Virus record (IMG/VR): IMGVR_UViG_3300008120_001144
Coordinates: 1-22,911 of that record
Source of the DNA: a virus
Strand: one strand, 5' to 3'
DNA length: 22,911 nt
Below, one piece after another: positions 2,057-21,607 of the stretch. The stretch's first letter is position 1. The number at the start of each line of letters is the position of its first letter. Below the pieces are notes generated by a model. The model did not search any database. It was given only the letters and a program-made list of their open reading frames with translations, and was not told the origin of the DNA. The position numbers were made by a program, and so were the translations under genes.

Positions 2057-3070
2057 ATGTTTGATGTATATTTTACCACAGGAATAGGTAAAATCAATAC
2101 CGGAGTAGATATTTGGGTAAATAATTGGTTGAGTGAAATAAGTAAAGACTTAGACACTCAACCGGTTTTACTTATTTATAGAAACAAACCAATTGATTTT
2201 AATTTTGAAATACCGATAGAACATTATTGGTATAACGATGAAAGTGGGAATCATAAAGATATATTTGAAGAAAAATTTAGAGAATGTAGAAGATTAAATA
2301 TTCTACATGCTCATTATACACCATTAGAATTAATAGAAGAAAATTTAGATAAATTATGGAGTTATGTAATTCATAATGATTTATCTAAAGTTTATGTTCA
2401 AAGTGGATTATCGGATTTACAATTTGGTTGGATACCACATTATTCGAAGGAATGGGAAAATAAAATTTTAGTTGGTGCTAAAAATAAAATGTGGGTAGGA
2501 TTGTATGAATTGCATGAAGATGTGTTTAAAGGATATGTTTCGATACCATCTTATTACCAATTTATCCAAAATAAAGAGTTATCAAATTCAAATAAAATAG
2601 GATTTACTTCAAGATGTGAAGTAAGAAAAAATCCACATTATTTAGATGGATTAGAAGGTTTTATGTTTACGAATATAAGACCTTTTCAAAAAACTTGGAA
2701 AAAGGAATACGATTTAGATTTTTCGAAGTTAAAAAAGATTCAATTTGAGAGCGAATATAGTGATAGGTATTATGAAATGGATTGGGGAATTTCACACTCT
2801 GCTTTTAATGCTGAACCATTTGGGTATTCTATATTTCAGAATGTGGATTGGGGAAAGTTACCTATTTTAAGTGAGGATTGGTGTGTTGATATAAATTATA
2901 AATTCAGAGCTGATAGTAAAAGAGAATTTGTAAATATTTATAAGAGTATCATACAATTATCTTATGAGGAAAAAGTTGAAGAGTTCAATTCTTTAAAATC
3001 GCAACTCATAAATAAGTTTAGTGATAGCACAAATTGGAAAACAAAATTATTAAATATATACAATGCCTAG
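2057..3070 (+). CDS. GT-B glycosyltransferase-like protein
   Basis: This 337-residue protein resembles GT4/GT1-type glycosyltransferases. The N-terminal half contains a HAHY segment (residues 84-87) and a VIHND segment near 104-108, both typical of the acceptor-side domain. The second half has GFTSRCEVRKNPHYL (182-196), like the start of the donor-binding domain. EPFGYSIFQNVDWGKLPIL (253-271) corresponds to the E-P-F-G sugar-nucleotide motif. No signal peptide or membrane segment is seen, so it should act in the host cytoplasm. It lies 3 bases after the tail fibre and overlaps the next virion gene by 8 bases, so the likely target is a virion protein such as the fibre or the Hint-domain protein. 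Modification of host glycan or DNA is also possible. The fold is fairly sure; the substrate is a guess. Confidence 0.7.
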   Translation: MFDVYFTTGIGKINTGVDIWVNNWLSEISKDLDTQPVLLIYRNKPIDFNFEIPIEHYWYNDESGNHKDIFEEKFRECRRLNILHAHYTPLELIEENLDKLWSYVIHNDLSKVYVQSGLSDLQFGWIPHYSKEWENKILVGAKNKMWVGLYELHEDVFKGYVSIPSYYQFIQNKELSNSNKIGFTSRCEVRKNPHYLDGLEGFMFTNIRPFQKTWKKEYDLDFSKLKKIQFESEYSDRYYEMDWGISHSAFNAEPFGYSIFQNVDWGKLPILSEDWCVDINYKFRADSKREFVNIYKSIIQLSYEEKVEEFNSLKSQLINKFSDSTNWKTKLLNIYNA

Positions 3071-4349
3071 AGTAAATGGAAATACCCTTTCATTAGGAAA
3101 TCTTAAAGTGGCAACAGCAGCGGCTGCAAGTTCACTATCTTCTGCAGCAGGAACTACATCAGGACCAATAGCAATGTCACAATTCGGTATTGATTCGGTT
3201 GATTCAATAAGTGGATTTACATACGTTAAAGAATCTACCGGTGAAACTTTTACATTAGGATTTACTGATGCAGGTAGTCGTTTTTTAAGCCGTATAGGTA
3301 GTGTAACTAATAACTTTACTTGGTCTTTATCAGTAGGTGCAGAATTTTCAATTCAAGCAAATCCTCCATATAATCCAACCGTAACCGCGAATGGAATAGG
3401 AAACTCGTCTACTTTGGCGGCACCTACTGCGAGAACACTTTCGGTAAGATTTAGGGATACATTTAATGACCACGCAACAGGATATGATACCGTAAAAGAT
3501 AAGACTGTTTATAATGTAGATGATTATGCGGGTGCGAGTGGATTGTGTTTACATTTAGATGAAGATGTTTTAATGGCAGATGGAACGACAAAGAAAGCGG
3601 GTGATTTAGTAGAGGGTGATATAGTTCGTTCTTACTACCCACCGCATGTTGATACCCTTACCGATTTTAACTTTTATGATTGGACTTATTATACCGCAGG
3701 TGGAATAATGGTCGATTCATATGTTAAAGATGTGGCATATACATTTGTGGATAGATGGAACATTGTAACAACAGATAGCGGTTCGGTGAAAGGAAATGGT
3801 GAACACCCTATGATGGTTTTTGATATAAACGAAGAAGTTTACAAATTTAAACCATTAGGATTAATTCAAGAAAACGATAGATTTATTAAAGTAAATTTAG
3901 ATGGTAGTATTGAAGAGGTAAATGTGGTATCAAATACCGTTCAAAACACTACAATAGAGGTTGTTTCAATAGACGTTGAAGAAGTGGATACTTACATAGT
4001 AAATGGATTCGTAACCCATAATAAGGGAGCAAACTCATTTGCGGGGTATTCTATTTCAACCACACCAACCGTATCAGTATCAACCGTAACTATTGGGGGT
4101 GAAACTTATAGAAGATTAACTCTTTCCCCAAATAATGCAGTAACTTCACCTGGTTCAACTGCAATTACCGCGAACTATTCTTATGAAATACAAATTGCAT
4201 CAGATAGTGGATTTGGAAGTGTCTTAGCTAACGTATCTTCATATAGTTCTAATACATACGATTACAAAAGTGGAACTGCAATCTATGCTAGGGCTAAGTT
4301 AAACTTCGCTGGATTACAAACGGCATTCGGTTCAGCAGGAAACGGATAA
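3063..4349 (+). CDS. Virion-associated protein with an internal Hint (intein-like) domain
   Basis: This 428-residue protein starts at an ATG overlapping the previous stop by 8 bases. Residues 1-160 are low-complexity virion-type sequence (AAAASSLSSAAG, SGPIAMSQFGI, Thr/Ser-rich beta strands). Residues 162-320 form a Hint domain: Cys162 opens it in the context CLHLDEDVLMADGTTKKAGDL, the block B region is GNGEHPMM with His248, and it ends TYIVNGFVTHN (His319, Asn320). The flank resumes with KGANSF and fibre-like sequence (residues 321-428). There is no homing endonuclease insert. Residue +1 is Lys, not Cys/Ser/Thr, so canonical protein splicing is not expected; bacterial intein-like (BIL) domains of this type self-cleave or form esters. 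The location next to fibre genes suggests a tail-tip or decoration protein processed after synthesis. Confidence 0.8.
   Translation: MPRVNGNTLSLGNLKVATAAAASSLSSAAGTTSGPIAMSQFGIDSVDSISGFTYVKESTGETFTLGFTDAGSRFLSRIGSVTNNFTWSLSVGAEFSIQANPPYNPTVTANGIGNSSTLAAPTARTLSVRFRDTFNDHATGYDTVKDKTVYNVDDYAGASGLCLHLDEDVLMADGTTKKAGDLVEGDIVRSYYPPHVDTLTDFNFYDWTYYTAGGIMVDSYVKDVAYTFVDRWNIVTTDSGSVKGNGEHPMMVFDINEEVYKFKPLGLIQENDRFIKVNLDGSIEEVNVVSNTVQNTTIEVVSIDVEEVDTYIVNGFVTHNKGANSFAGYSISTTPTVSVSTVTIGGETYRRLTLSPNNAVTSPGSTAITANYSYEIQIASDSGFGSVLANVSSYSSNTYDYKSGTAIYARAKLNFAGLQTAFGSAGNG
3546..4022 (+). other. Hint/BIL-type mini-intein-like domain coding segment
   Basis: Codons for Cys162 to Asn320 (159 residues). The N-terminal Cys, a block-B His and the terminal His-Asn pair are present; the block-B Thr is replaced (NGEH instead of TxxH), and the residue after Asn is Lys. 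The size fits a minimal Hint domain without endonuclease. Confidence 0.75.
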
Positions 4350-10153: not shown

Positions 10154-11173
10154 ATGGCAGAACACGGACATCAAAATAAATCACAACAAGAATATAATGA
10201 ATTACTTGGAATGACTCAATCTCTTTTGGGAAAGATGAGCGATGCCCTGTCAGAATTGGATTCTCAAACCGATAAGAGAAACAAAAAACTTTCAACACAA
10301 ATATCTCTTACAAAAGATATAATTAGCGATTTACAAAATGAGAAAGATTTGCAAGCAGCTATCAATCTTTTAACACAGAATGCAAATAATATGTCTTCTC
10401 AAAATTTTGGTGTAAATCAAAAGTTATTAAAAAATTATCAATTACAATTAACTGCTTTACAGGGTATATTACAAAAGCAGCAAGATGCGGCAAAAATATT
10501 AGGAAGAGTAAATAGTGTTGTAGATGGTGTAAAGGATAAATTTCATGATGTATTTCATGCTATTGATCATGGATTAGGAGATATACCATTTATCGGTGAA
10601 AAATTAAAAAATGCATTTCATCCATTCGCTGAAAAATCACAAAGAATGTTTGGATTAGTTGCCGATAAATTTAAAATGAGTTTTAAACGTTCATTTGAAT
10701 CTTCATTGGTTAGTGGAAAAAGTTTCTCACAGGCTACTTTTGGTGGTATAAAAGCAGGATTAGGAGATGCTGGAAAATTGGCAATGAGATTTGCCGGAAT
10801 GTTAGGGCCTATTGCAATCGGTATTATTGGCATTGGTGCCGCAATTGGATTGGGATGGCATAGAATGCATGATTTGGAAAAAGCTGCAACCGATTTTAAA
10901 ACTACAACAGGATTAGCTACTGCCGATTTGCATGAACTTGAATACACTATTAAAAATGTTAGTAATAAGTTTGGAGTATTAGGTGTTAGTGCGGAAGATG
11001 TTGGTAAAATAATGAGTGATTTTACTACTGCAATGGATGGGATGTCAATACCCGCAGAAAGTACTGTTGCGGCATTAGCAGTAATGAGTAAAAACTTTGG
11101 TGTGAATGCAAAAAGTGCTTCAGGTAATCAAAGATATGGCAGAAAATGCCGGAGAAGCATATCAATATTTTAG
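10154..11173 (+). CDS. Tail tape measure protein, N-terminal part (frame broken)
   Basis: 339 codons. Residues 1-115 are a long helical, Gln/Lys-rich coiled region (QEYNELLGMTQSLLGKMSDALSELDSQ and onward). Residues 130-160 hold a DIPFIGEKLKNAFHPF segment and 213-235 a Gly/Ile-rich hydrophobic stretch (AGMLGPIAIGIIGIGAAIGLGW), as in tape-measure proteins that can insert in membrane during DNA ejection. From about residue 245 comes a helical domain with TTGLATADLHELEYTIKNVSNKFGVLGVSAEDVGKIMSDF. Sense is lost after NFGVNAKSA (about 11118): the last codons, SGNQRYGRKCRRSISIF, are basic nonsense. The natural continuation lies in the +1 frame. T4 gp29 is the functional counterpart: it sets tail length inside the tube. 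Confidence 0.85.
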   Translation: MAEHGHQNKSQQEYNELLGMTQSLLGKMSDALSELDSQTDKRNKKLSTQISLTKDIISDLQNEKDLQAAINLLTQNANNMSSQNFGVNQKLLKNYQLQLTALQGILQKQQDAAKILGRVNSVVDGVKDKFHDVFHAIDHGLGDIPFIGEKLKNAFHPFAEKSQRMFGLVADKFKMSFKRSFESSLVSGKSFSQATFGGIKAGLGDAGKLAMRFAGMLGPIAIGIIGIGAAIGLGWHRMHDLEKAATDFKTTTGLATADLHELEYTIKNVSNKFGVLGVSAEDVGKIMSDFTTAMDGMSIPAESTVAALAVMSKNFGVNAKSASGNQRYGRKCRRSISIF

Positions 11174-12461
11174 AGGTTCACCACAGGAATTAGTAAAAGC
11201 AGCAGTTTATGCAGCTAAAATGGGTGCTTCTATTAAAGATATGACCGCAAGCGCTAATAAACTTTTAGACTTTGAAGAAAGTATATCAAAAGAATTAGAA
11301 GCATCTGCATTATTAGGAACTAACTTAGATTTTTCAAAAGCTAGAGAGTTGGCATTTACCGGAGATTTGTTAGGAATGCAAAAAGAACTAACAAAAGAAT
11401 TGGCAAGTGTTGGAGATATCAGTAAGATGTCTACATATGAGAAACAGGCATTAGTAGATGCTACCGGTCAAGAATTAGATACTTTGATGAATACTCAAAG
11501 AATTTATAATAAGTTTGGTAGTTTAGATGATGCAAGATTGGCAGCGGCAAATGATTTAATTGCAAGTGGTAAAGATATTGCAGATGTAAGTGAAGCAGAT
11601 TTAGAAGCCCAAACTGAAAGATTGGCTAAACAACAAAAGATGCAAGATGCTATGGGATCACTCAAAAATAGTATGAGTGCAATCGGAACGGCATTTACCG
11701 ATTTGTTTGCACCAATGGCATCGATGTTTTTAATAGGATTATCACAAGTGGCCAAATTCTTAGCAGGTGTATTAGTTCCAACATTAAATTTTATAGGTTC
11801 TTTAATTAAAACTGTTTTTTCTCCGATAGGATATTTGGTTGGTACCGTAAAGGCATTGGTAGAAGATGGTTTTGGAGGAATGGTTAAAAAATTACAAGAA
11901 ATGGGGCCTGTGATGGCTACAATTGTTGGATTAGTTGGTACGTTAGCAGCGATATGGGTTATTAGTATTTTACCCACTGTAATTGCAACCGTATCTAGTT
12001 TGGCTATTGGATTATTAGGAGCATTGTTTGCTGGTATTGCAGCAGTTTGGACATTTGCAGCAGGTTTAATAACATCTGCCATCGCAGCAATTAGTACGAT
12101 GTCTGCATTAACATTAGGTATCGGTGCAATTGCAATTATAGGTGGTATTGCGGCTGGAGCAGCTGCAATGAATAGTCAAACCGAAGGAGCTACTACAAAA
12201 GCTGAAAGTGTACAAGATGGTGTTATTTCACCAGGTGGTAATGTAATTTCTACTTCACCGGATGATTTCTTAATAGCAACAAAAAATCCAGGTGCATTAG
12301 CAGATACGGTGAGTCAAGGTGGAGGGACTTCTATGGAAGGAGTTATTGCTGAATTAAGAGAATTAAAAGCAGCATTTATGGCAAATAGAAATGTGTACAT
12401 AGATGGTCAATTAGTTACATCTAAAATTGCAAGTGTTGCAAGTAAAAATCCAGTAACCTAA
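11106..12461 (+). CDS. Tail tape measure protein, C-terminal part (frame broken)
   Basis: 451 codons from the first ATG, which directly follows an in-frame TGA (11103-11105). True continuity with the upstream part probably begins at about 11118: NAKSA then QVIKDMAENAGEAYQYFRGSPQELV. Residues to about 200 are helical with FTGDLLGMQKELTKELASVGD and YEKQALVDATGQELDTLM. Residues ~200-360 are a very long hydrophobic, Ala/Gly/Ile-rich region (several potential membrane helices, MATIVGLVGTLAAIWVISILPTV and more). The end is a DDFLIATKNPGALADTV segment typical of tape-measure C-termini, then an Arg/Asn tail. Joined to the first part the protein would be about 770 residues. It is 5 bases before the next baseplate gene. 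Confidence 0.85.
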   Translation: MQKVLQVIKDMAENAGEAYQYFRGSPQELVKAAVYAAKMGASIKDMTASANKLLDFEESISKELEASALLGTNLDFSKARELAFTGDLLGMQKELTKELASVGDISKMSTYEKQALVDATGQELDTLMNTQRIYNKFGSLDDARLAAANDLIASGKDIADVSEADLEAQTERLAKQQKMQDAMGSLKNSMSAIGTAFTDLFAPMASMFLIGLSQVAKFLAGVLVPTLNFIGSLIKTVFSPIGYLVGTVKALVEDGFGGMVKKLQEMGPVMATIVGLVGTLAAIWVISILPTVIATVSSLAIGLLGALFAGIAAVWTFAAGLITSAIAAISTMSALTLGIGAIAIIGGIAAGAAAMNSQTEGATTKAESVQDGVISPGGNVISTSPDDFLIATKNPGALADTVSQGGGTSMEGVIAELRELKAAFMANRNVYIDGQLVTSKIASVASKNPVT

Positions 12462-14473: not shown

Positions 14474-14751
14474 TGAGATATAACTTAAAAAATATAAAGA
14501 GATTGGATGATGGTAAAAAGGTGTTAAAGACATCTATACCCAAAACTATTCCCAAAAAGGATGATGATATATACATTATTACACAAGAAACTGATAGATT
14601 AGATTTATTAGCAAATGAATTTTATAAAGATAGTTCCTTATGGTGGATTATCGCTACCGCTAATAATTTGAATGGTGTAAATATTGGGTTAGAAGCAGGA
14701 TTGCAATTAAGAATTCCGAAAAATAAATTTGATATAATAAATCAATACTAA
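14473..14751 (+). CDS. LysM-domain baseplate wedge protein (T4 gp53-like)
   Basis: 92 residues. After a basic lead (residues 1-30) comes a LysM-type domain (33-82): IYIITQETDRLDLLANEFYKDSSLWWIIATANNLNGVNIGLEAGLQLRIP. The D-R-L-D-L-L-A-N-E-F-Y, SLWW(I) and GLQLRIP elements are those of the LysM proteins that sit at the baseplate of contractile tails (gp53 in T4, gpX type in others). It acts as a structural clamp, not as an enzyme. It begins at the A of the previous TAA and overlaps the next start in the same way, so these genes are translationally coupled. Confidence 0.82.
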   Translation: MRYNLKNIKRLDDGKKVLKTSIPKTIPKKDDDIYIITQETDRLDLLANEFYKDSSLWWIIATANNLNGVNIGLEAGLQLRIPKNKFDIINQY

Positions 14752-15422
14752 TGGCGTTTCCTTTTTATAAAAGTATAGATTCATATATAGTAAGTGAGTT
14801 AAGGGCTAGATCATCAGAAAATAATGTTCAGCTATCAAAATTAGTGCCTTGGATTAAAGCAACAACAAGTTTAGAAGGAAGGTATTCAATAGGAACTGAT
14901 TCGTATTCAACTTTATTTGATGGTAGTTCAACTGATGCTTATCGTAATACTTCTGAATGGAGATATAGACCTAATCCCATCATAACGGATTTCTCTGTGG
15001 ATTTTGCTAGTAGGGGAACGTTGAGGAGATGCACATTAAAAATAAAATGTTTTACACCGGAGCAATTAAGATTGATTCAACAAAATTTTTTAGAACCCGG
15101 TATAAGTGTGTATGTTCAATGGGGTTGGAATTATTCAGTTAGAACAAATAAAGCAATTGGGCCAACTGATGTAAGTGCGGGTACTGTTCAAAAATACAAT
15201 AGAAATGCAGCTGAATTAAATAGTATAAGAGCGGCCAATCAAGGTTGTTATGATAATTTCGTTGGAATAATCGGTGGAGGAGAATCAACTATATCTGGAT
15301 TAGAATTTGATGTTGATGTAAAGATGGTTTCGTTAGGAGAAATTTTAATGGGAAAAAGTGGAGAAACTGTAACACCGACAACAACTGCCGAACCTATAAA
15401 ACCATTAAGCCATCCGTGGTAA
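14751..15422 (+). CDS. Baseplate hub protein, N-terminal part (frame broken)
   Basis: 223 codons. Features: VPWIKATTSLEGRYSIGTDSYSTLFDG, RPNPIITDFSVDFASRGTLRRCTLKIKCFTPEQLRLIQQNFLEPGISVYVQWGWNYS (residues ~77-130, in part), and NFVGIIGGGESTISGLEFDVDVKMVSLGEIL. The R-P-N-P-I-I, C-F-T-P-E-Q-L, E-P-G-I-S-V-x-V-Q-W-G-W-N pattern is that of phage hub proteins (gp27/late control D-like fold) at the centre of the baseplate. The frame ends abruptly with SHPW and TAA at 15420-15422. The +1 frame is open from 15409 and continues with hub-type sequence, so the two ORFs are one gene: PIKPLS then IRGNLTFKGKSFEAAD is one possible join. Confidence 0.75.
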   Translation: MAFPFYKSIDSYIVSELRARSSENNVQLSKLVPWIKATTSLEGRYSIGTDSYSTLFDGSSTDAYRNTSEWRYRPNPIITDFSVDFASRGTLRRCTLKIKCFTPEQLRLIQQNFLEPGISVYVQWGWNYSVRTNKAIGPTDVSAGTVQKYNRNAAELNSIRAANQGCYDNFVGIIGGGESTISGLEFDVDVKMVSLGEILMGKSGETVTPTTTAEPIKPLSHPW

Positions 15423-15423
15423 T

Positions 15424-16653
15424 TTGACATTTAAGGGAAAATCTTTTGAAGCAGCTGATGCTGATAATCCAATCAATGGGGGTAAATTTATGAGTTTTGA
15501 TGCATTTATTAAATTGATGAATGCAGCTAGAATTAAGTTAAGTTCGGCTAATGTTGATTTCTCAATAGACATTTCAAACACTTATATTGGTGGATTTTCT
15601 AGAATTTTTTCTACCGATGAAAGAATTTTTATTCCTAATTCGACTTGTTACAATTATTTGGACGATATTATTTTATTAAATCCATCCGGTGCTCCATCCG
15701 GAACTGCATTGGATACATCAGTAAATGGTAGATCATTTCCAAAGACCGGTGCTACTACGGTGACATTCGAAGGTCAATCGGTAACTTTGCCAGCCGGTAA
15801 ACATGGTTGGATTGGGGATGTTTATATCGAAAATGAAATGGCAATGGAGGCATTAAAGGATCAAACCACTCCAATAAAAGAAGTTTTAGATGGTGTTTTA
15901 AAAAAAATGGAAGAAGCAGTAGAAGGGCTTTGGTCGTTTCAAATACTAGAAGATAATTCAGGTACAACAAAATTAAGAATTGCTGATGCAAATTTAAGAA
16001 ATGTAAGAAGTGGAAATGGTGGATCAAATGTTGAAGTATTTGATATGTTTGGGACAAATAGTTTCTTTTTAAATGCGAGTTTTAATTTAGACATTCCGAA
16101 AGAAATGGCTAGTAAAGTGTATATGGAAAAATCAGTTGATAACGTTCAATCAACCAATGAATTGACTGGAATATTTTCATCTAAAAAAGATGTTGTATTA
16201 GGAAAATTGAATAAAGAAGCATATGATTCTACCGTAAAAACTCCGGAGGAAGAAGACCCTAAACAAAAATGGATTGAATTCCGAAGAAATATAAAATTAT
16301 TAGTAAACCCCAAAATAATTTCAGTTGCAGATATAGAAGATGGTAATATGGATGAATGGGCGATATGTGGTAGTTTCTTAAATAAAAGAAAATTTAACGA
16401 CATAAGAAAAGCAGATTTGGGATATACCGGAGGGGGTGAAGTTTATAATGGAAGAACTTTACCAGTAGGATTTGATTTTAGTGTATTAGGTATGAGTGGT
16501 TTCCAAGTCGGTCATCTATTTAGTGTAAAGGGGTTACCTCCACAATATGGTATTGGAAGAGGAGCATTTCAGGTAGAAGAAATAACCCACAAAATTGATG
16601 GTAAGCAATGGGTTACGGATGTTAAGAGTCATTTTAGACCTTTTTATAAGTAA
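15424..16653 (+). CDS. Baseplate hub protein, C-terminal part (frame broken)
   Basis: 410 codons counted from a TTG; the first in-frame ATG is at 15490. The frame is open upstream to 15409, just after an in-frame TAA (15406-15408). Contents: KFMSFDAFIKLMNAARIKL, a FSRIFSTDERIFIPNST segment, GWIGDVYIENEMAMEALKDQTTPIKEVLDGVLKKMEEAVEGLWSFQI (in part), and a diagnostic end GFDFSVLGMSGFQVGHLFSVKGLPPQYGIGRGAFQVEEITHKIDGKQWVTDVKSHFRPF, typical of late-control-D/gp27-like hubs. It has no plausible own ribosome start at its beginning, which supports one split gene of about 633 residues. The next gene follows after 3 bases. Confidence 0.75.
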   Translation: MTFKGKSFEAADADNPINGGKFMSFDAFIKLMNAARIKLSSANVDFSIDISNTYIGGFSRIFSTDERIFIPNSTCYNYLDDIILLNPSGAPSGTALDTSVNGRSFPKTGATTVTFEGQSVTLPAGKHGWIGDVYIENEMAMEALKDQTTPIKEVLDGVLKKMEEAVEGLWSFQILEDNSGTTKLRIADANLRNVRSGNGGSNVEVFDMFGTNSFFLNASFNLDIPKEMASKVYMEKSVDNVQSTNELTGIFSSKKDVVLGKLNKEAYDSTVKTPEEEDPKQKWIEFRRNIKLLVNPKIISVADIEDGNMDEWAICGSFLNKRKFNDIRKADLGYTGGGEVYNGRTLPVGFDFSVLGMSGFQVGHLFSVKGLPPQYGIGRGAFQVEEITHKIDGKQWVTDVKSHFRPFYK

Positions 16654-16656
16654 ATT

Positions 16657-17037
16657 ATGATTGATAATTATAAAAAATTAAAAACAATACCTATTAAGAA
16701 TAGAACACCTAAAGCATATTTCCCTAATCCAAATAATAGAGATTATGAAATAGGTTTTATTAGAAGGTATTTTACTCAAATGAGAGCTACACCCGGTGCA
16801 CCTATATTTGAAATAAGTGAGGATACATATGCTGATTATTCAGATACTCCTTATTATGTTGGTGTAAAAATAAATTGGAAAATTACCGGTGATTTAGAAG
16901 ATACATATACTGAAAATGGTGAATATATCCCATCGGTTCATACTGTAAATTCATTATCAATTATAGAAGGAGAAAAAATAATACCAGAATTGAATTTATA
17001 TTTGGTAAATACAAAACAATTTCATAGATTAGTATAG
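16657..17037 (+). CDS. Small tail-linked protein of unknown function
   Basis: 126 residues, soluble, no signal or membrane segment. The sequence begins basic (LKTIPIKNRTPKAYFPNPNNRDYEIGFIRRYFTQMRATPGAPIFEIS, in part), then has YYVGVKINWKITGDLEDTYTENGEYIPSVHTVNSLSIIEGEKIIPELNLYLVN, which looks beta-rich. I recognise it as the kind of small conserved protein that follows hub genes in T4-like phages of marine-type hosts, but cannot name a function. It is 3 bases from the hub gene and probably in the same operon. A baseplate wedge or fibre-attachment role is possible, without direct support. Confidence 0.68.
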   Translation: MIDNYKKLKTIPIKNRTPKAYFPNPNNRDYEIGFIRRYFTQMRATPGAPIFEISEDTYADYSDTPYYVGVKINWKITGDLEDTYTENGEYIPSVHTVNSLSIIEGEKIIPELNLYLVNTKQFHRLV

Positions 17038-17060: not shown

Positions 17061-17843
17061 ATGGCAAATTTTAAACATCTATCGGATTTAGAAATCCAAC
17101 AAATGACCTTCGATTGGAGGTATAGAGGTTTCACCACTTTAGATTTATTAACTGAAGAAGAGTGTGATGAAATCAACGATGAATTAGAAAGATTAAGACA
17201 GGAAAGAAAAGGAACACTAACACCAGAAGGAAAAGATTGGGGTGAGTGGGATCCATTTGCATATCCACATAAGATTTCTGAAAAATTAGAAAAATTATTT
17301 GTTCATCCAAAGATTATCGAGGCGTGTGAATTCTTAATGGAAGGTGAGATAGTTGGTATGCAAACTTGGGCATACTTTAAACCACCGGGACAATTGGGTA
17401 GAGATATGCACCAAAATGCATTCTATACAGGATGTGGACACAACGAAATTATCAATACTGCATTGGCTTTAGATAATCATGACGCGGGGAATGGGGCAGT
17501 ATGGAATTACGAAGGTTCTCATAGATTACCAACCTTACCAATTGAAGTTGATGAGGAGAGAACAAAAACTAACCCATCATTTTGGAGAAACGAAAGAGGT
17601 AAACCGTGTGTAATGCCGGAGGGACATGATTTTCGTAAAGTAGAAGGAGTTCTTAAAAAGGGACAAGTTGTATTATTACATTCTCATTGTGTGCATGGTT
17701 CAGAAGCGAATGACTCAAAGAGATTCAGAAGAAACTTTTTAGGTGGTTACTTAAAAAAAGGAGCATACTTCAATCAGGGTTCACATATGAAAAGAGAGCC
17801 AATCGAATTGAAACCTTTGCAAGAAAAGTATTGGAATTCTTAA
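17061..17843 (+). CDS. PhyH-family Fe(II)/2-oxoglutarate dioxygenase
   Basis: 260 residues, family length. Elements in order: YRGFTTLDLLTEEECDEINDELERL (N-terminal strand and helix), GMQTWAYFKPPGQLGRDMHQNAFY (100-122) with the metal-binding His117, ALALDNHDAGNGAVWNYEGSHRLP (135-157; N-G and GSH motifs), GQVVLLHSHCVHGSEANDSKRFRRNFLGGY (201-230) with the distal ligand His212 and the 2-oxoglutarate Arg224. In the family the first motif is HxD; here it is His117-Gln-Asn119. The rest is well kept, so it may still bind iron, or the Asn may alter chemistry. PhyH genes are common among structural genes of T4-like marine phages; substrates are unknown. It follows a TATAAATA site. Start ATG chosen as first in-frame, with an AT-rich leader. 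Confidence 0.85.
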   Translation: MANFKHLSDLEIQQMTFDWRYRGFTTLDLLTEEECDEINDELERLRQERKGTLTPEGKDWGEWDPFAYPHKISEKLEKLFVHPKIIEACEFLMEGEIVGMQTWAYFKPPGQLGRDMHQNAFYTGCGHNEIINTALALDNHDAGNGAVWNYEGSHRLPTLPIEVDEERTKTNPSFWRNERGKPCVMPEGHDFRKVEGVLKKGQVVLLHSHCVHGSEANDSKRFRRNFLGGYLKKGAYFNQGSHMKREPIELKPLQEKYWNS

Positions 17844-17861
17844 AAATTATTCGTATATTTG
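17831..17861 (+). promoter_or_regulatory. Bacteroidetes-type promoter before the polymerase-like gene
   Basis: TTGG (17831-17834), exactly 19 bases, then TATATTTG (17854-17861), a full match to the TAnnTTTG -7 element. The -33 element lies inside the end of the oxygenase gene. The expected transcript start is at or within two bases of the ATG at 17868, so a leaderless or near-leaderless mRNA would result. Confidence 0.55.
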
Positions 17862-17867
17862 TTTCCT

Positions 17868-19109
17868 ATGGTAAAATTCGTAGAGAACAAACAAAGCGGT
17901 AAAGAATTTCTAAAAGAATACACTTCTAAAAAAAGTGTAATATTTCCCTTATTCCAAAATAGAAAAGAGCACCCCATAGTGAATAAACTATTGGGTGCTT
18001 TTGTTTTTATCGGTGATGATTGTTATGTTTTAACGAATGGACATAATGATGTGGTAGATGCACCATTAGGAGCATTGACTTCGGGCGATGCACCTAAATT
18101 TATATTTGATAGTAAATGGTTTCTACATCAGTTAAACCTACCAAACTCACATAGTGTAGATGTATTGTATCATCTTAAAGAATTCAAAACATTTGAGTAT
18201 GATATGATATATAATTCTTTTACAAAGGGGTATCGGAATAGAGATGATTTAAGTTTTATACCAATCAGCACACTCATTAAATATGTAACTGATTTTGTAA
18301 AAGAAAACATTAAGTATGCGGATACAAAGGGGGTTGGGGGTTATGAGTTTTACAATCATTTAGTCCTACCTGAATTCCAAAAGATAGAGGGGAATGGAAT
18401 ACCAACTACATTTGGATATGAATACTCCCTCTACAACAACTTTACAACCACAGGGCGACCTTCAAATACTTTCGGAGGGGTAAACTACTCCGCACTAAAT
18501 AAATCGGATGGCAGTAGAGATTATATCGTTTCTAAAAGGGGTGAATTAGTTCAATACGATTTCGATGGATACCACGTCCGTCTGATAGCAAATTTAGTAG
18601 GAGAATCTATACCCGAAGATTCCGCACATGAATGGTTGGGCAAACAATATTTTGGGAAAACCGTATTAAGTGATGAGGATTACCTTAATAGTAAGAAACT
18701 TACTTTCCAACAATTATATGGTGGGATAGATGTAGAAAATTTAGAAATACCATTCTTCCAAAAGACGGATGTATTCATTAAGGAGATGTATAAGAGGTTT
18801 TTGATTAATGGTTATTTGGAAACAAAGGTTGGAAAAAGAATTCCTTTCCAAAGAATTGATAACCATAATCCGCAAAAGGTATTTAACTATTATTTGCAAT
18901 CGCTGGAAACCGAAACAAATGCATTTTTAATTAAAAAGATTAATAAATTACTTAAATACAAAGAAACCAAATTGGTTTTATATACCTATGATTCGTTTTT
19001 ATTCGATGTTGATGATGGGGAAACAGCTATTTTAGATGAAATAAAAGCAATTTTGGAAACCATTGCTCCGATTGAAGTGTTAAAAAGTAAGACTTATGGA
19101 AATATTTAA
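17868..19109 (+). CDS. Compact family A DNA polymerase-like protein, no recognisable exonuclease
   Basis: 413 residues from the ATG at 17868; an upstream in-frame TTG (17859) lies in the promoter -7 element and is rejected. The C-terminal ~220 residues have PolA motifs in order: TTTGRPSNTFGGVNY (194-207, the TGRLSS...PNLQN region), motif A YDFDGYHVRLIANLVGE (from 230; catalytic Asp231, Arg238), motif B KKLTFQQLYGG (276-286; Lys276, Phe280, Tyr284), GYLETKVGKRIPF (315-327, the GYVET..GRR block), YYLQSLETETNAFLIKK, and motif C LYTYDSFLFDV (catalytic Asp375). Changes: the motif A Glu position is His (237), the motif C HDE is YDS, and the motif B Arg position is Tyr. The first ~180 residues show no DxE exonuclease motif. 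T4-like phages normally replicate with a family B polymerase, so this is an accessory or diverged enzyme. Active or not is open. Confidence 0.8.
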   Translation: MVKFVENKQSGKEFLKEYTSKKSVIFPLFQNRKEHPIVNKLLGAFVFIGDDCYVLTNGHNDVVDAPLGALTSGDAPKFIFDSKWFLHQLNLPNSHSVDVLYHLKEFKTFEYDMIYNSFTKGYRNRDDLSFIPISTLIKYVTDFVKENIKYADTKGVGGYEFYNHLVLPEFQKIEGNGIPTTFGYEYSLYNNFTTTGRPSNTFGGVNYSALNKSDGSRDYIVSKRGELVQYDFDGYHVRLIANLVGESIPEDSAHEWLGKQYFGKTVLSDEDYLNSKKLTFQQLYGGIDVENLEIPFFQKTDVFIKEMYKRFLINGYLETKVGKRIPFQRIDNHNPQKVFNYYLQSLETETNAFLIKKINKLLKYKETKLVLYTYDSFLFDVDDGETAILDEIKAILETIAPIEVLKSKTYGNI

Positions 19110-19145: not shown

Positions 19146-19541
19146 ATGAAAACACAGTTACTATGCACATTTGCGGAGACGGATAGTTTACAAGATATAC
19201 TTCAAAAAGTTAGAGAAAACTATAAAATTGTTTACAACTATATCTACATCCTGCAAAATAAAACTTCGTTAGAAGAGTTATATATAACTTATAATATAGA
19301 TGTTGATTTTAGGCCGCCGGTTCAATTAGAAAATACGATTTTAGTTCATCGTAAAAAACAATCAAACACACTATATACTATTAACGCTTTAAACCAACTT
19401 ATTAAAGAAGAAAATGGTGGAGTGTTAGATACAAATTTTTCATTAGATTGGGATAAATTTAAAAACTCAATCATTCTAACCGGAGCGACTGGTATTAGAA
19501 AGATACCGACAAGAATATTCCAAAAGATTGAATTCAATTAA
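19146..19541 (+). CDS. Conserved-looking small phage protein of unknown function
   Basis: 131 residues. The sequence reads as a compact alpha/beta protein: QLLCTFAETDSLQDILQKVRENYKIVYNYIYILQNK (N-terminal strand and helix), LEELYITYNIDVDFRPPVQLENTILVHRKKQSNTLYTINALNQLIKEENGGVLDTNFSLDWDKFKNSIILTGATGIRKIPTRIFQKIEF. The phrases ENTILVHRKK.SNTLYTINALN and DTNFSLDW look strongly conserved and are of a kind I associate with T4-like phage genomes near head and tail genes. No catalytic motif is visible. It is preceded by a weak hairpin and followed after 8 bases by the large ParB-domain gene. The function is unknown; it is not a clear homologue of any named T4 protein. Confidence 0.7.
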   Translation: MKTQLLCTFAETDSLQDILQKVRENYKIVYNYIYILQNKTSLEELYITYNIDVDFRPPVQLENTILVHRKKQSNTLYTINALNQLIKEENGGVLDTNFSLDWDKFKNSIILTGATGIRKIPTRIFQKIEFN

Positions 19542-19549
19542 TAGAAAAA

Positions 19550-21607
19550 ATGATTGATGTTAATAAAATAATAGATGAAATTTTATTAGAGCATTCTCAA
19601 AAATACCCTATACCTTCGTTGAAAGAAAAGGTGCAGGTTGAGAATCTAATAGAGTGTTGTTACAAGTTAGGATATGGACGATATGCGGGAATCATATCTG
19701 AAATTTTTATTAATGAAGCCGAACCCCCAAAAAAGCCGCAGAGTGATGGTGAAGGTGAATCAAAAGATTTTCCTGGTAAGTTTCATTTAGGGGGTGGTTA
19801 CTATTCATCCAAAGAAGGTGGGGAAGTAGAATTTAAAAACGATAACGGTAATTTAAGACCCGTAACTCCAGAAGAAAAAGCAGAGTTTGAAAAAAAATTA
19901 GGTGGAGGAGATGAAAAAGAGCCAACTGATTCTAAACAACCAACCGAACAACCACCTGCAGAAAAAAGTCCGGAAGAAAAAGAAAAAGAAGATGCAATTA
20001 AAAGTGAACCCGAAAAGGTTTTAAACAATCCTGATGCATCGGCGAGAGATAGAGCGAGAGCAGGTTCATCAAAGAGAAAAAGGGATATATTAAAAGCAAA
20101 GCAAAAGGATGATCCTGAATTTCAAGCCGAATTAAAAAAGAAGGTTACTGAAAAAAATGAGGAGATTGCAAAAGAATTGACATCTCAAAAGGATAGTGAT
20201 GGGAATATGTTGGATGCTGAAACAACTGAAAACGGTTCTCTACTTATCGGAGTTGAGCATGGTGAGGGGAATGAAAGCACAAAGAATACAATAGAAAAGA
20301 TTAAATCCTTACCAAAAGATGCAAAAGTAATGTTTGTTGGTGAAGGTGGAGTTGGTTTAGGTGATGATGGTAAAATTGATTTTGTTGGAGAGCAGGCTGA
20401 ATTAAGAGACGCGTGTTTAGAACATTTTGATAATGCCAAAGAAGAGAGTTGGGATGAAAATGGTGATGTAAGGAATTCCGATTCACCTATTTTTGATGAT
20501 ATAGCCAAATCATTTGATGGTAATAAAGAAAAGGCAATGGCATCGGTTTGGACAAATATGGTTGGACAGGGAGATGATTTGGATGCCGATGATTACCTTA
20601 CTGATGAAACGAAAGAATGGATTAAGGGAGAAGCGAGAAAAGGTGGAAGTAAAGAGTTTGATGGTGATGTAGATTGGAATAACCTTACATTAGAACAAAA
20701 AGAAGACCTATATCAACTTAATTATAGAGATGATCAGAACTATGGTGAAACTGATTTATCCAAAGGTCAAAAGGCATTTAATGATTATAGACAAAAGGAG
20801 TTAGATAGAAAAATAAAAGAAGGGGAAGAAAAAGGATACACTGTAATTGCTACGATGGGTAATTCTCACGTTGGAATGTGGAGAGAAAGAAATAAGAAAA
20901 AAGATGAAACTTTTAAACCCCAATCCTTACGAAATTTACAAAAAGAATTACCCGATGCTGATAAAGAAGTATTCAGTAAAGAATCTGATTTAGATAAAAT
21001 ACCTGCCGATAAGAGAGAAGAAATTTCTATGAAGATTGATGAGTTGGCGGATAAAGCGAATAAGGGTGAAGATTTTAACCTTTGCCAGGTAACAGTTCCT
21101 GGTACAAACTTATATTGTGATGATAATCAAGGAATTCCGAGAGAAGAGATGCCACAATTCAAAGGCAAACCCTTACCTGGAACTCCCGCTGAAGAACTTC
21201 CGAAAGATAGTAAAGGTGAAGTAGATACCGAACCTCTTTTCAAAAAAATGTTAAAGGAGAAGGGTATTAAAACCGTTGAAACCGAATTACCTTCCGATAA
21301 ATTAAAAGCAACTCAAAGTGAATTAGTTGGTAGTAAAGTAGCAGGAATGACGAAGGCGTTAGAAGAAGACCCTCAAAATCCTGGTATTACTGCACCAATT
21401 TATGTAAGTAGAGATGGATTCGTAATCGATGGACACCATAGATGGGCAGCCGTTACATCTGCGGCTATTAAAGCTGGGAAACCTGCCAATATGAAGGTGA
21501 TTGTAGTGGATATGGATATAAAAGATGCCATCCCAATGTGTAAACGAAAAGTTTATAGGTCTATTGTTCGAAGAAACTGTTACAAAGCAATTACCTGGTG
21601 GGGATGA
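19550..21607 (+). CDS. Large multidomain phage protein: possible TraB/Tiki-like region and ParB-like domain (frame broken at the end)
   Basis: 685 codons. Residues 1-55 are a helical N-terminal domain (IIDEILLEHSQKYPIPSLKEKVQVENLIECCYKLGYGRYAGIISEIF). 56-225 are very charged and disordered (Pro/Glu/Lys/Asp-rich). 228-445 could be a TraB/Tiki/EreA-type fold: LLIGVEHGEG (His237), VMFVGEGG (Glu265), FNDYRQKELDRKI (Arg414) and VIATMGNSHVGM (His440); this is tentative. 570-661 is a ParB/sulfiredoxin-type domain: PIYVSRDGFVIDGHHRWAAVTSAAI with the DGHHRW core (627-632), then MKVIVVDMDIKDAIPM. After Cys664 the frame gives basic nonsense (KRKVYRSIVRRNCYKAITWWG) to the stop. Sense continues in the +1 frame to the window end. 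ParB-like domains in phages can be nucleases or CTP-binding switches; here the role is unknown. Large acidic multidomain proteins may be packaged in virions. Confidence 0.75.
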   Translation: MIDVNKIIDEILLEHSQKYPIPSLKEKVQVENLIECCYKLGYGRYAGIISEIFINEAEPPKKPQSDGEGESKDFPGKFHLGGGYYSSKEGGEVEFKNDNGNLRPVTPEEKAEFEKKLGGGDEKEPTDSKQPTEQPPAEKSPEEKEKEDAIKSEPEKVLNNPDASARDRARAGSSKRKRDILKAKQKDDPEFQAELKKKVTEKNEEIAKELTSQKDSDGNMLDAETTENGSLLIGVEHGEGNESTKNTIEKIKSLPKDAKVMFVGEGGVGLGDDGKIDFVGEQAELRDACLEHFDNAKEESWDENGDVRNSDSPIFDDIAKSFDGNKEKAMASVWTNMVGQGDDLDADDYLTDETKEWIKGEARKGGSKEFDGDVDWNNLTLEQKEDLYQLNYRDDQNYGETDLSKGQKAFNDYRQKELDRKIKEGEEKGYTVIATMGNSHVGMWRERNKKKDETFKPQSLRNLQKELPDADKEVFSKESDLDKIPADKREEISMKIDELADKANKGEDFNLCQVTVPGTNLYCDDNQGIPREEMPQFKGKPLPGTPAEELPKDSKGEVDTEPLFKKMLKEKGIKTVETELPSDKLKATQSELVGSKVAGMTKALEEDPQNPGITAPIYVSRDGFVIDGHHRWAAVTSAAIKAGKPANMKVIVVDMDIKDAIPMCKRKVYRSIVRRNCYKAITWWG

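Follow-up and report, generated by a model that had tools for sequence, protein, structure and literature searches.

An accessory family A DNA polymerase of the divPolA1 type, with histidine at the predicted steric gate, opens the replication block of a phage genome fragment

The protein encoded at positions 17868-19109 (+ strand, 413 aa, ATG start) of a 22,911-nucleotide viral fragment (IMG/VR record IMGVR_UViG_3300008120_001144; this whole stretch is referred to here as the window) was assigned, on the strength of homology, profiles, an AlphaFold model and dN/dS, to the accessory family A DNA polymerases of the divPolA1 type. The reading favoured here, to which a probability of roughly 0.6 is given, is that it would serve as an active but proofreading-deficient auxiliary polymerase of phage replication or recombination, likely the polymerase part of a DNA polymerase I that has been split, while another polymerase copies the genome. 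Family, fold, catalytic residues, a dead exonuclease, purifying selection, gene neighbourhood, a shared promoter sequence and a separate replicase were all computed.

Support from the single sequence was weak, the match to Pfam DNA_pol_A (E=6.6e-4, 19 bits) falling under the 34-bit cut-off. The polymerase matched PHROG 17 (DNA polymerase) with E=8e-6, and a phmmer search of the PDB with this protein alone returned no match. A six-sequence family profile matched Klenow (E=1e-4), and hhalign aligned the family with a PolA (Klenow) profile at 97% probability over residues 182-410, which were taken as palm and fingers (18411-19097, + strand). An AlphaFold model of the 413-aa protein, built with 58 sequences, reached a pLDDT of 94.1 and a pTM of 0.91. 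When this model was compared with the PDB by Foldseek, Klenow (TM 0.75-0.81, E about 1e-18; best E 4e-19), Taq, Pol theta and Pol nu were among the structural matches, and all of the best 50 were DNA polymerases, with no RNA polymerase among them. The first-pass annotation had called a family A polymerase with both catalytic Asp residues and the O-helix Lys, Phe and Tyr; these were borne out by residue mapping, and the palm/fingers fold on which the call depended was recovered by the model as a Klenow-like one. Only two helices were seen by DSSP between the exonuclease-like domain and the palm, at residues 133-176 (18264-18395, + strand); they would, by their position, represent a reduced thumb, in agreement with the 'Thumb truncated' description of divPolA1 (PMC11348598). 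An in-frame TTG is found upstream at 17859, while the ATG start agrees with all relatives. Nei-Gojobori dN/dS values of 0.09-0.14, obtained against relatives of the window lineage, indicate purifying selection, and the gene, to judge from sequence, encodes a genuine conserved enzyme rather than a polymerase in decay.

Mapping of the active site onto Klenow by hhalign placed D231, H236 and H254 at D705, E710 and H734; Y272, K276, F280 and Y284 at R754, K758, F762 and Y766 in the O helix; and N340, Q344, Y374, D375 and S376 at N845, Q849, H881, D882 and E883. The substitutions noted at first sight, namely His for the motif A Glu, Tyr for the triphosphate-contact Arg, and YDS for HDE, are therefore real. 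Their conservation was scored over 174 distinct sequences, of which 108 were left after an 80% identity filter and 172 contained motif C. In motif A (DFDGYH, 18558-18575, + strand) the catalytic D231 and the His replacing the steric-gate Glu, H236, were each present in 174/174 distinct relatives. In the O helix (Y272...K276...F280...Y284-G285, 18681-18722, + strand), K276 was found in 174/174, F280 in 172/174 and Y284 in 173/174 sequences. Position 272 (R754) was Tyr in 142/174, the remainder being mostly I, V, E, M or L, and as this position varies within the family, Tyr at 272 was rejected as a family signature. Motif C (Y374-D375-S376, HDE in Klenow; 18987-18995, + strand) showed Tyr and Asp in 172/172 and, at its third position, Ser in 126 and Ala in 46; Q344 is also among the conserved residues of the family, with D231, K276, Y284 and D375. 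Compared with canonical family A enzymes, the Asp pair and the O-helix Lys and Tyr are thus kept, whereas the motif A Glu is replaced by His throughout.

As the second profile scan had relied on patterns drawn from motifs A and C, the retrieval was repeated with a segment outside the motifs, and again with the neighbouring 131-aa gene alone. The 43 new sequences obtained by the former carried H236 in 43/43 and Y374 in 42/42 cases (one fragment did not include the site), and the 41 obtained by the latter carried both residues without exception (41/41 each), so that an origin of the His/Tyr invariance in the search patterns was rejected. Seven control PolAs (E. coli, T7, immuto gp199, Muddy, HMO-2011, Hamlet and Twort) all have Glu at the E710 position (7/7), and their motif C reads HDE, HDQ, HDA or HDS. 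By this sequence comparison, E710->His and H881->Tyr mark the divPolA1-type family, and E883->Ser does not. The originally listed alterations thus hold as changes, but those at R754 and E883 are not distinctive, since position 272 varies and HDS, HDA and HDQ are also found in the PolAs of other phages that are otherwise ordinary. Conservation of E710 throughout family A has been described as universal (PMC4882331), and its loss could therefore mean different chemistry. An altered site does not imply inactivity, however, as the PolA of Thermus phage Tt72, in which Ser occupies the E883 position, is active, and an Ala mutant of its E710 equivalent retains 35% activity (PMC9324360). The Tt72 enzyme is likewise a phage family A polymerase, but it is 703 aa long, proofreads strongly and has kept the steric-gate Glu (PMC9324360).

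The N-terminal domain appears to be the remnant of a proofreading exonuclease. Residues 1-131 (17868-18260, + strand), modelled alone by AlphaFold with a pLDDT of 81, gave best Foldseek matches, with E values between about 1e-4 and 1e-3, to 3'-5' exonucleases, including Nibbler, NrnC, RNase D, Klenow and Pol theta, consistent with a DEDD-type 3'-5' exonuclease fold lacking the catalytic acids. No conserved Asp or Glu was present at the exo II position, and exo I and exo III were judged from secondary structure alone. A subset of the family, about 332-346 aa in length, is without the exonuclease-like domain altogether. Because of the DEDD fold without an exo II acid and of these short members, the domain is, on the model, vestigial and in some members gone: a dead exonuclease rather than an unrelated domain. 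The earlier statement that the N-terminal ~180 residues lack exonuclease signatures was right as to the catalytic acids, but not as to the fold, which residues 1-131 still adopt.

The idea of a main polymerase accompanied by an accessory one of family A is not new, having been published in 2024 as divPolA1 (PMC11348598). The group was named in 14 phages, including immuto, by Yutin et al. (2024, PMC11348598), who described a divergent PolA with an inactivated exonuclease (catalytic Asp replaced) and a truncated thumb, found in addition to a regular family A, B or C DNAP and with replication genes downstream, and who proposed that DNAP activity is retained and that the protein has a role in replication (PMC11348598). 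By sequence, the window gene is a member of divPolA1. It aligned with immuto gp001, whose record annotation reads DNA polymerase family A, at 29.9% identity over 86% of the query (tblastn, E=4e-37), and the two share homology over most of their length, the dead exonuclease, perhaps a reduced thumb, a regular family A, B or C DNAP elsewhere in the genome and the same replication genes after them. The palm with its main catalytic residues, the conserved order of replication genes downstream and the second DNAP were all found, and no feature excluding membership was seen. The terms E710, histidine, steric and promoter do not occur in the main text of PMC11348598, although the residues may be visible in the alignments of its figures, and within the literature searched the name divPolA1 was used only by Yutin et al. 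2024 and its preprint. New here are the invariant His and Tyr, the promoter type common with replication genes, the regular 131-aa neighbour, a much larger family, and short members without the exonuclease-like domain.

As to family size, 21 close loci with 66-100% identity to the polymerase were found in IMG/VR, and at least 550 relatives were recovered in each of two profile scans, the family thus comprising hundreds of loci. Among 50,697 annotated phage records it was present in 6, these being four of Flavobacterium phage immuto, one of Microcystis phage Mel-JY01 and one of a 484-kb uncultured phage; a search of genome contigs yielded a single MAG contig with a relative. The divPolA1 genes of Mel-JY01 (PP395634, 50397-51623) and of LR756508 (240919-242274) are labelled hypothetical or are unannotated.

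Pol theta and Pol nu are much larger eukaryotic enzymes with a canonical motif A. They have the family A fold and an exonuclease-like domain in common with the window protein, for which a translesion or end-joining function is no more than a possibility. Klenow and DNA polymerase I share with it the fold, the Asp pair and the equivalents of K758, F762, Y766, N845 and Q849, as well as a Pol I-type 5' nuclease, which is here a separate protein encoded nearby. The window protein differs from Klenow in E710->His, H881->Tyr, E883->Ser/Ala and R754->Tyr, in its length of 413 aa and in having no active exonuclease, and identity between the two is about 12% by structure. The divPolA2 proteins of barbaviruses are also second, divergent PolAs beside a PolB, but with an unrelated N-terminal domain and a variable gene neighbourhood, and they are treated as a separate group in the source (PMC11348598).

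The position of the gene among tail genes had seemed anomalous, which was not upheld once relatives were compared. In a contig that is 100% identical to the window over the polymerase gene (G001), a baseplate block is followed by a 126-aa gene, PhyH, the polymerase, the 131-aa gene and a 1407-aa gene, and then by DUF1599/dCMP deaminase, with a gp32-like SSB, UvsX, a 5'-3' exonuclease of the Pol I 5'-nuclease type (PF02739/PF01367), a DnaB-like helicase, RNR, thioredoxin, PolB, a clamp-like protein and a clamp loader further downstream (identities by Pfam/PHROG; RNR and thioredoxin by reading of the sequence). Across 59 non-redundant members, with losses mostly at contig ends, the upstream genes included the hub protein in 48, the 126-aa gene in 47 and a LysM-like gene in 37, and the downstream genes the 131-aa gene in 53, SSB in 46, UvsX in 43, the 5' exonuclease in 39 and the helicase in 29. 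Relatives down to 22% pairwise identity carry the gene at this position too, between the baseplate genes and SSB-UvsX-5' exonuclease-helicase. The 126-aa gene, the last of the baseplate block and the usual upstream neighbour (47/59 loci), lies at 16657-17037 (+ strand) in the window, and the start of the 1407-aa gene, intact in G001, at 19550-21607 (+ strand). Between the baseplate genes and the polymerase is a PhyH-type dioxygenase gene (17061-17843, + strand; Pfam PhyH, E=9e-20), which adjoins the polymerase in only 3/59 loci, all of the window lineage; one lineage member, L013, has a different upstream sequence from those with PhyH. As the same frame recurs over the 59 members, the polymerase opens the replication block at its border with the baseplate (late) genes, with PhyH as a locally inserted gene.

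The gene that follows, at 19146-19541 (+ strand), encodes a 131-aa conserved candidate partner protein, as judged from co-occurrence. Its family was found in exactly the same 6/50,697 phage records as the polymerase, and where loci retrieved by the 131-aa protein had enough upstream sequence, the polymerase lay upstream in 39/41. The other two (L288, L291) were rejected as loci without the polymerase, as their contigs end behind the 1.4-kaa gene, before its position, leaving 39/39 informative loci. No function was assigned by Pfam or PHROG; the alignment of the family (A5) contains a conserved HRKK...NT.YT.N.LN stretch. A physical partnership with the polymerase is only suggested, because co-inheritance in one phage lineage could give the same pattern.

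A promoter-like sequence of the Bacteroidetes type, TTGG-N19-TATATTTG, was found by pattern search and conservation at 17831-17861 (+ strand), 6 nt before the ATG and overlapping the end of PhyH. It is the only match in the window, and none occurred in 100 shuffles. The TATATTTG part is kept before the polymerase in 16/16 lineage members, including L013 with its different upstream gene, so that the first-pass claim of an own host-type promoter has a sequence signal behind it. In 64 kb of G001 the coding strand carries seven exact copies of the element (positions 11625, 17573, 18775, 22635, 29736, 40375 and 62689) and the other strand none, against 0.05 expected, and five of the seven precede the polymerase, the DUF1599/dCMP deaminase (nucleotide-metabolism) operon, SSB, the helicase and PolB. 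In both G001 (L070-L073) and G003 (L074-L078) such elements stand before replication and nucleotide genes, on the coding strand only. From these sequences, a host-type promoter of the kind found before SSB, helicase and PolB probably drives transcription of the polymerase, and the elements likely constitute an early/middle regulon of these phages. Outside the window lineage the same element precedes the polymerase in L138, L203 and L224; it was not seen before the gene in most of the distant members and is therefore not family-wide.

The accessory rather than sole status of the polymerase, as had been proposed, was confirmed in longer contigs, the window fragment itself being too short to include PolB. 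In the near-identical contigs G001 and G003, PolB lies about 17-18 kb downstream of the polymerase; that of G001 is 846 aa long with intact DIE, SLYPS and DTDS motifs and is adjoined by the clamp-like and clamp-loader genes. A role as the only polymerase of the phage was thereby rejected. PolB was present in nearly all contigs of sufficient length, while several others end too early. In G049, PolB (68626-72398) is split between two frames that are separated by about 1 kb and contain internal stops, possibly reflecting an intron, intein or insertion. Pol III alpha and no PolB was found in G028 and G045, a full-length PolA besides divPolA1 in immuto, and no PolB, Pol III or PolA match in the 52.6-kb fragment G041. 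Hence the divPolA1 gene is constant while the replicase family changes (A, B, C). Both G028 (L100, 336-342 aa) and G045 (L245, 346 aa) have short divPolA1 proteins without the exonuclease-like domain, yet the likewise short member L139/G034 is accompanied by PolB. DnaG was found in the larger genomes (G018, G020, immuto, Mel-JY01 and LR756508), the other contigs being fragments, and a function of the polymerase as stand-in for a missing primase was rejected on these grounds. Rhodothermus phage RM378, considered as a model for a split PolA, was also discarded, as a match to family B but none to family A was present in its record.

In the favoured reading of an auxiliary polymerase, the genome would be copied by another enzyme, here of family B, and divPolA1 would most likely be one half, the polymerase, of a DNA polymerase I split in two, its partners being UvsX, SSB and the separate 5'-3' exonuclease of the Pol I type, all encoded just downstream. 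It would extend 3' ends at gaps, at Okazaki-fragment junctions and at recombination intermediates; we infer that the window protein polymerises DNA, as we do its substrate and the timing of its expression. In T4-type phages RNase H and a family B polymerase suffice for the maturation of Okazaki fragments, and a gap-filling role is therefore not obviously needed. T4-like phages also possess the 5' exonuclease without divPolA1, which makes the linkage between the two non-exclusive.

The notion that divPolA1 is itself the replicative polymerase deserves next to no credence: the gene does sit in the replication block, and the 2024 paper leaves open which enzyme replicates (PMC11348598), but an intact PolB with clamp-like and clamp-loader genes is found in near-identical contigs, and divPolA1 lacks proofreading and has what may be a reduced thumb. 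The altered active site might suggest a catalytically dead structural subunit in which the polymerase fold is reused, which we hold to be very improbable, as both catalytic Asp residues, K276 and Y284 are kept in practically all 174 sequences and the gene is under purifying selection. That the steric-gate His admits rNTPs, with RNA or mixed strands being laid, is a long shot. T7-type RNA polymerases are relatives of family A, and E710, the residue excluding rNTPs in family A (PMC9324360), is His in all 174 distinct sequences, this gate residue being what speaks for the reading. A bulky His may still act as a gate, however, and neither the best 50 structural matches, all to DNA polymerases, nor the DnaG of the larger genomes fits such a role.

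Two further alternatives leave the enzyme an active DNA polymerase. In one, which has a small chance of being correct, an exonuclease-dead polymerase would take over from a DnaG-type primer and pass the 3' end to any replicase. Phage replicases as a rule elongate RNA primers without such help, which argues against this role; the constancy of the polymerase under family A, B or C replicases, the promoter type common with helicase and SSB, and DnaG in the larger genomes are in its favour, and a precedent is eukaryotic Pol alpha, an exo-inactive polymerase at initiation (PMC7544198). In the other, unlikely but slightly better placed, the protein would copy past lesions where phage DNA is damaged or modified, in the manner of Pol theta or Pol nu, both among its structural matches; the lack of proofreading, the non-canonical fidelity residues (E710->H, R754->Y) and the nearby UvsX would fit, but the compact protein leaves no room for Pol theta-type inserts, and its near-universal place by core replication genes and the common promoter type fit a role that is routine and not induced by damage. 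A bolder and likewise unlikely proposal is that these proteins may form a new functional class: a His-gated, non-proofreading enzyme that, together with the 131-aa protein, would serve in initiation independently of the replicase or in RNA-tolerant extension, and that large T4-related phages would keep as the replicase swaps among families A, B and C. As the accessory gene stays constant while the main polymerase changes family, divPolA1 may in any case bear on how phages survive replicase swapping.

The finding is thereby tied to a published but biochemically uncharacterised group, which becomes testable through one invariant, changeable residue (steric-gate Glu to His) and one candidate partner protein, and the promoter type predicts co-expression of divPolA1 with replication genes. 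A natural, small, His-gated polymerase free of proofreading would also be of interest as a reagent.

Some features of the window lie outside the polymerase gene. Compared with near-identical contigs (L002, L004), the window record is without roughly 107 and 185 bases, at about 11120 and at 15416-15422, with overlaps of 4 and 7 bases at the deletion junctions, and the match to L002/L004 ends at 21543. Three window ORFs are broken at those points (10154-12461, 14751-16653 and 19550-21607). The gaps and the break at 21543 look like an assembly artefact, and the polymerase gene is unaffected. Within the probable structural protein encoded at 3063-4349, residues of about 160-320 gave a weak intein/Hint-like match.
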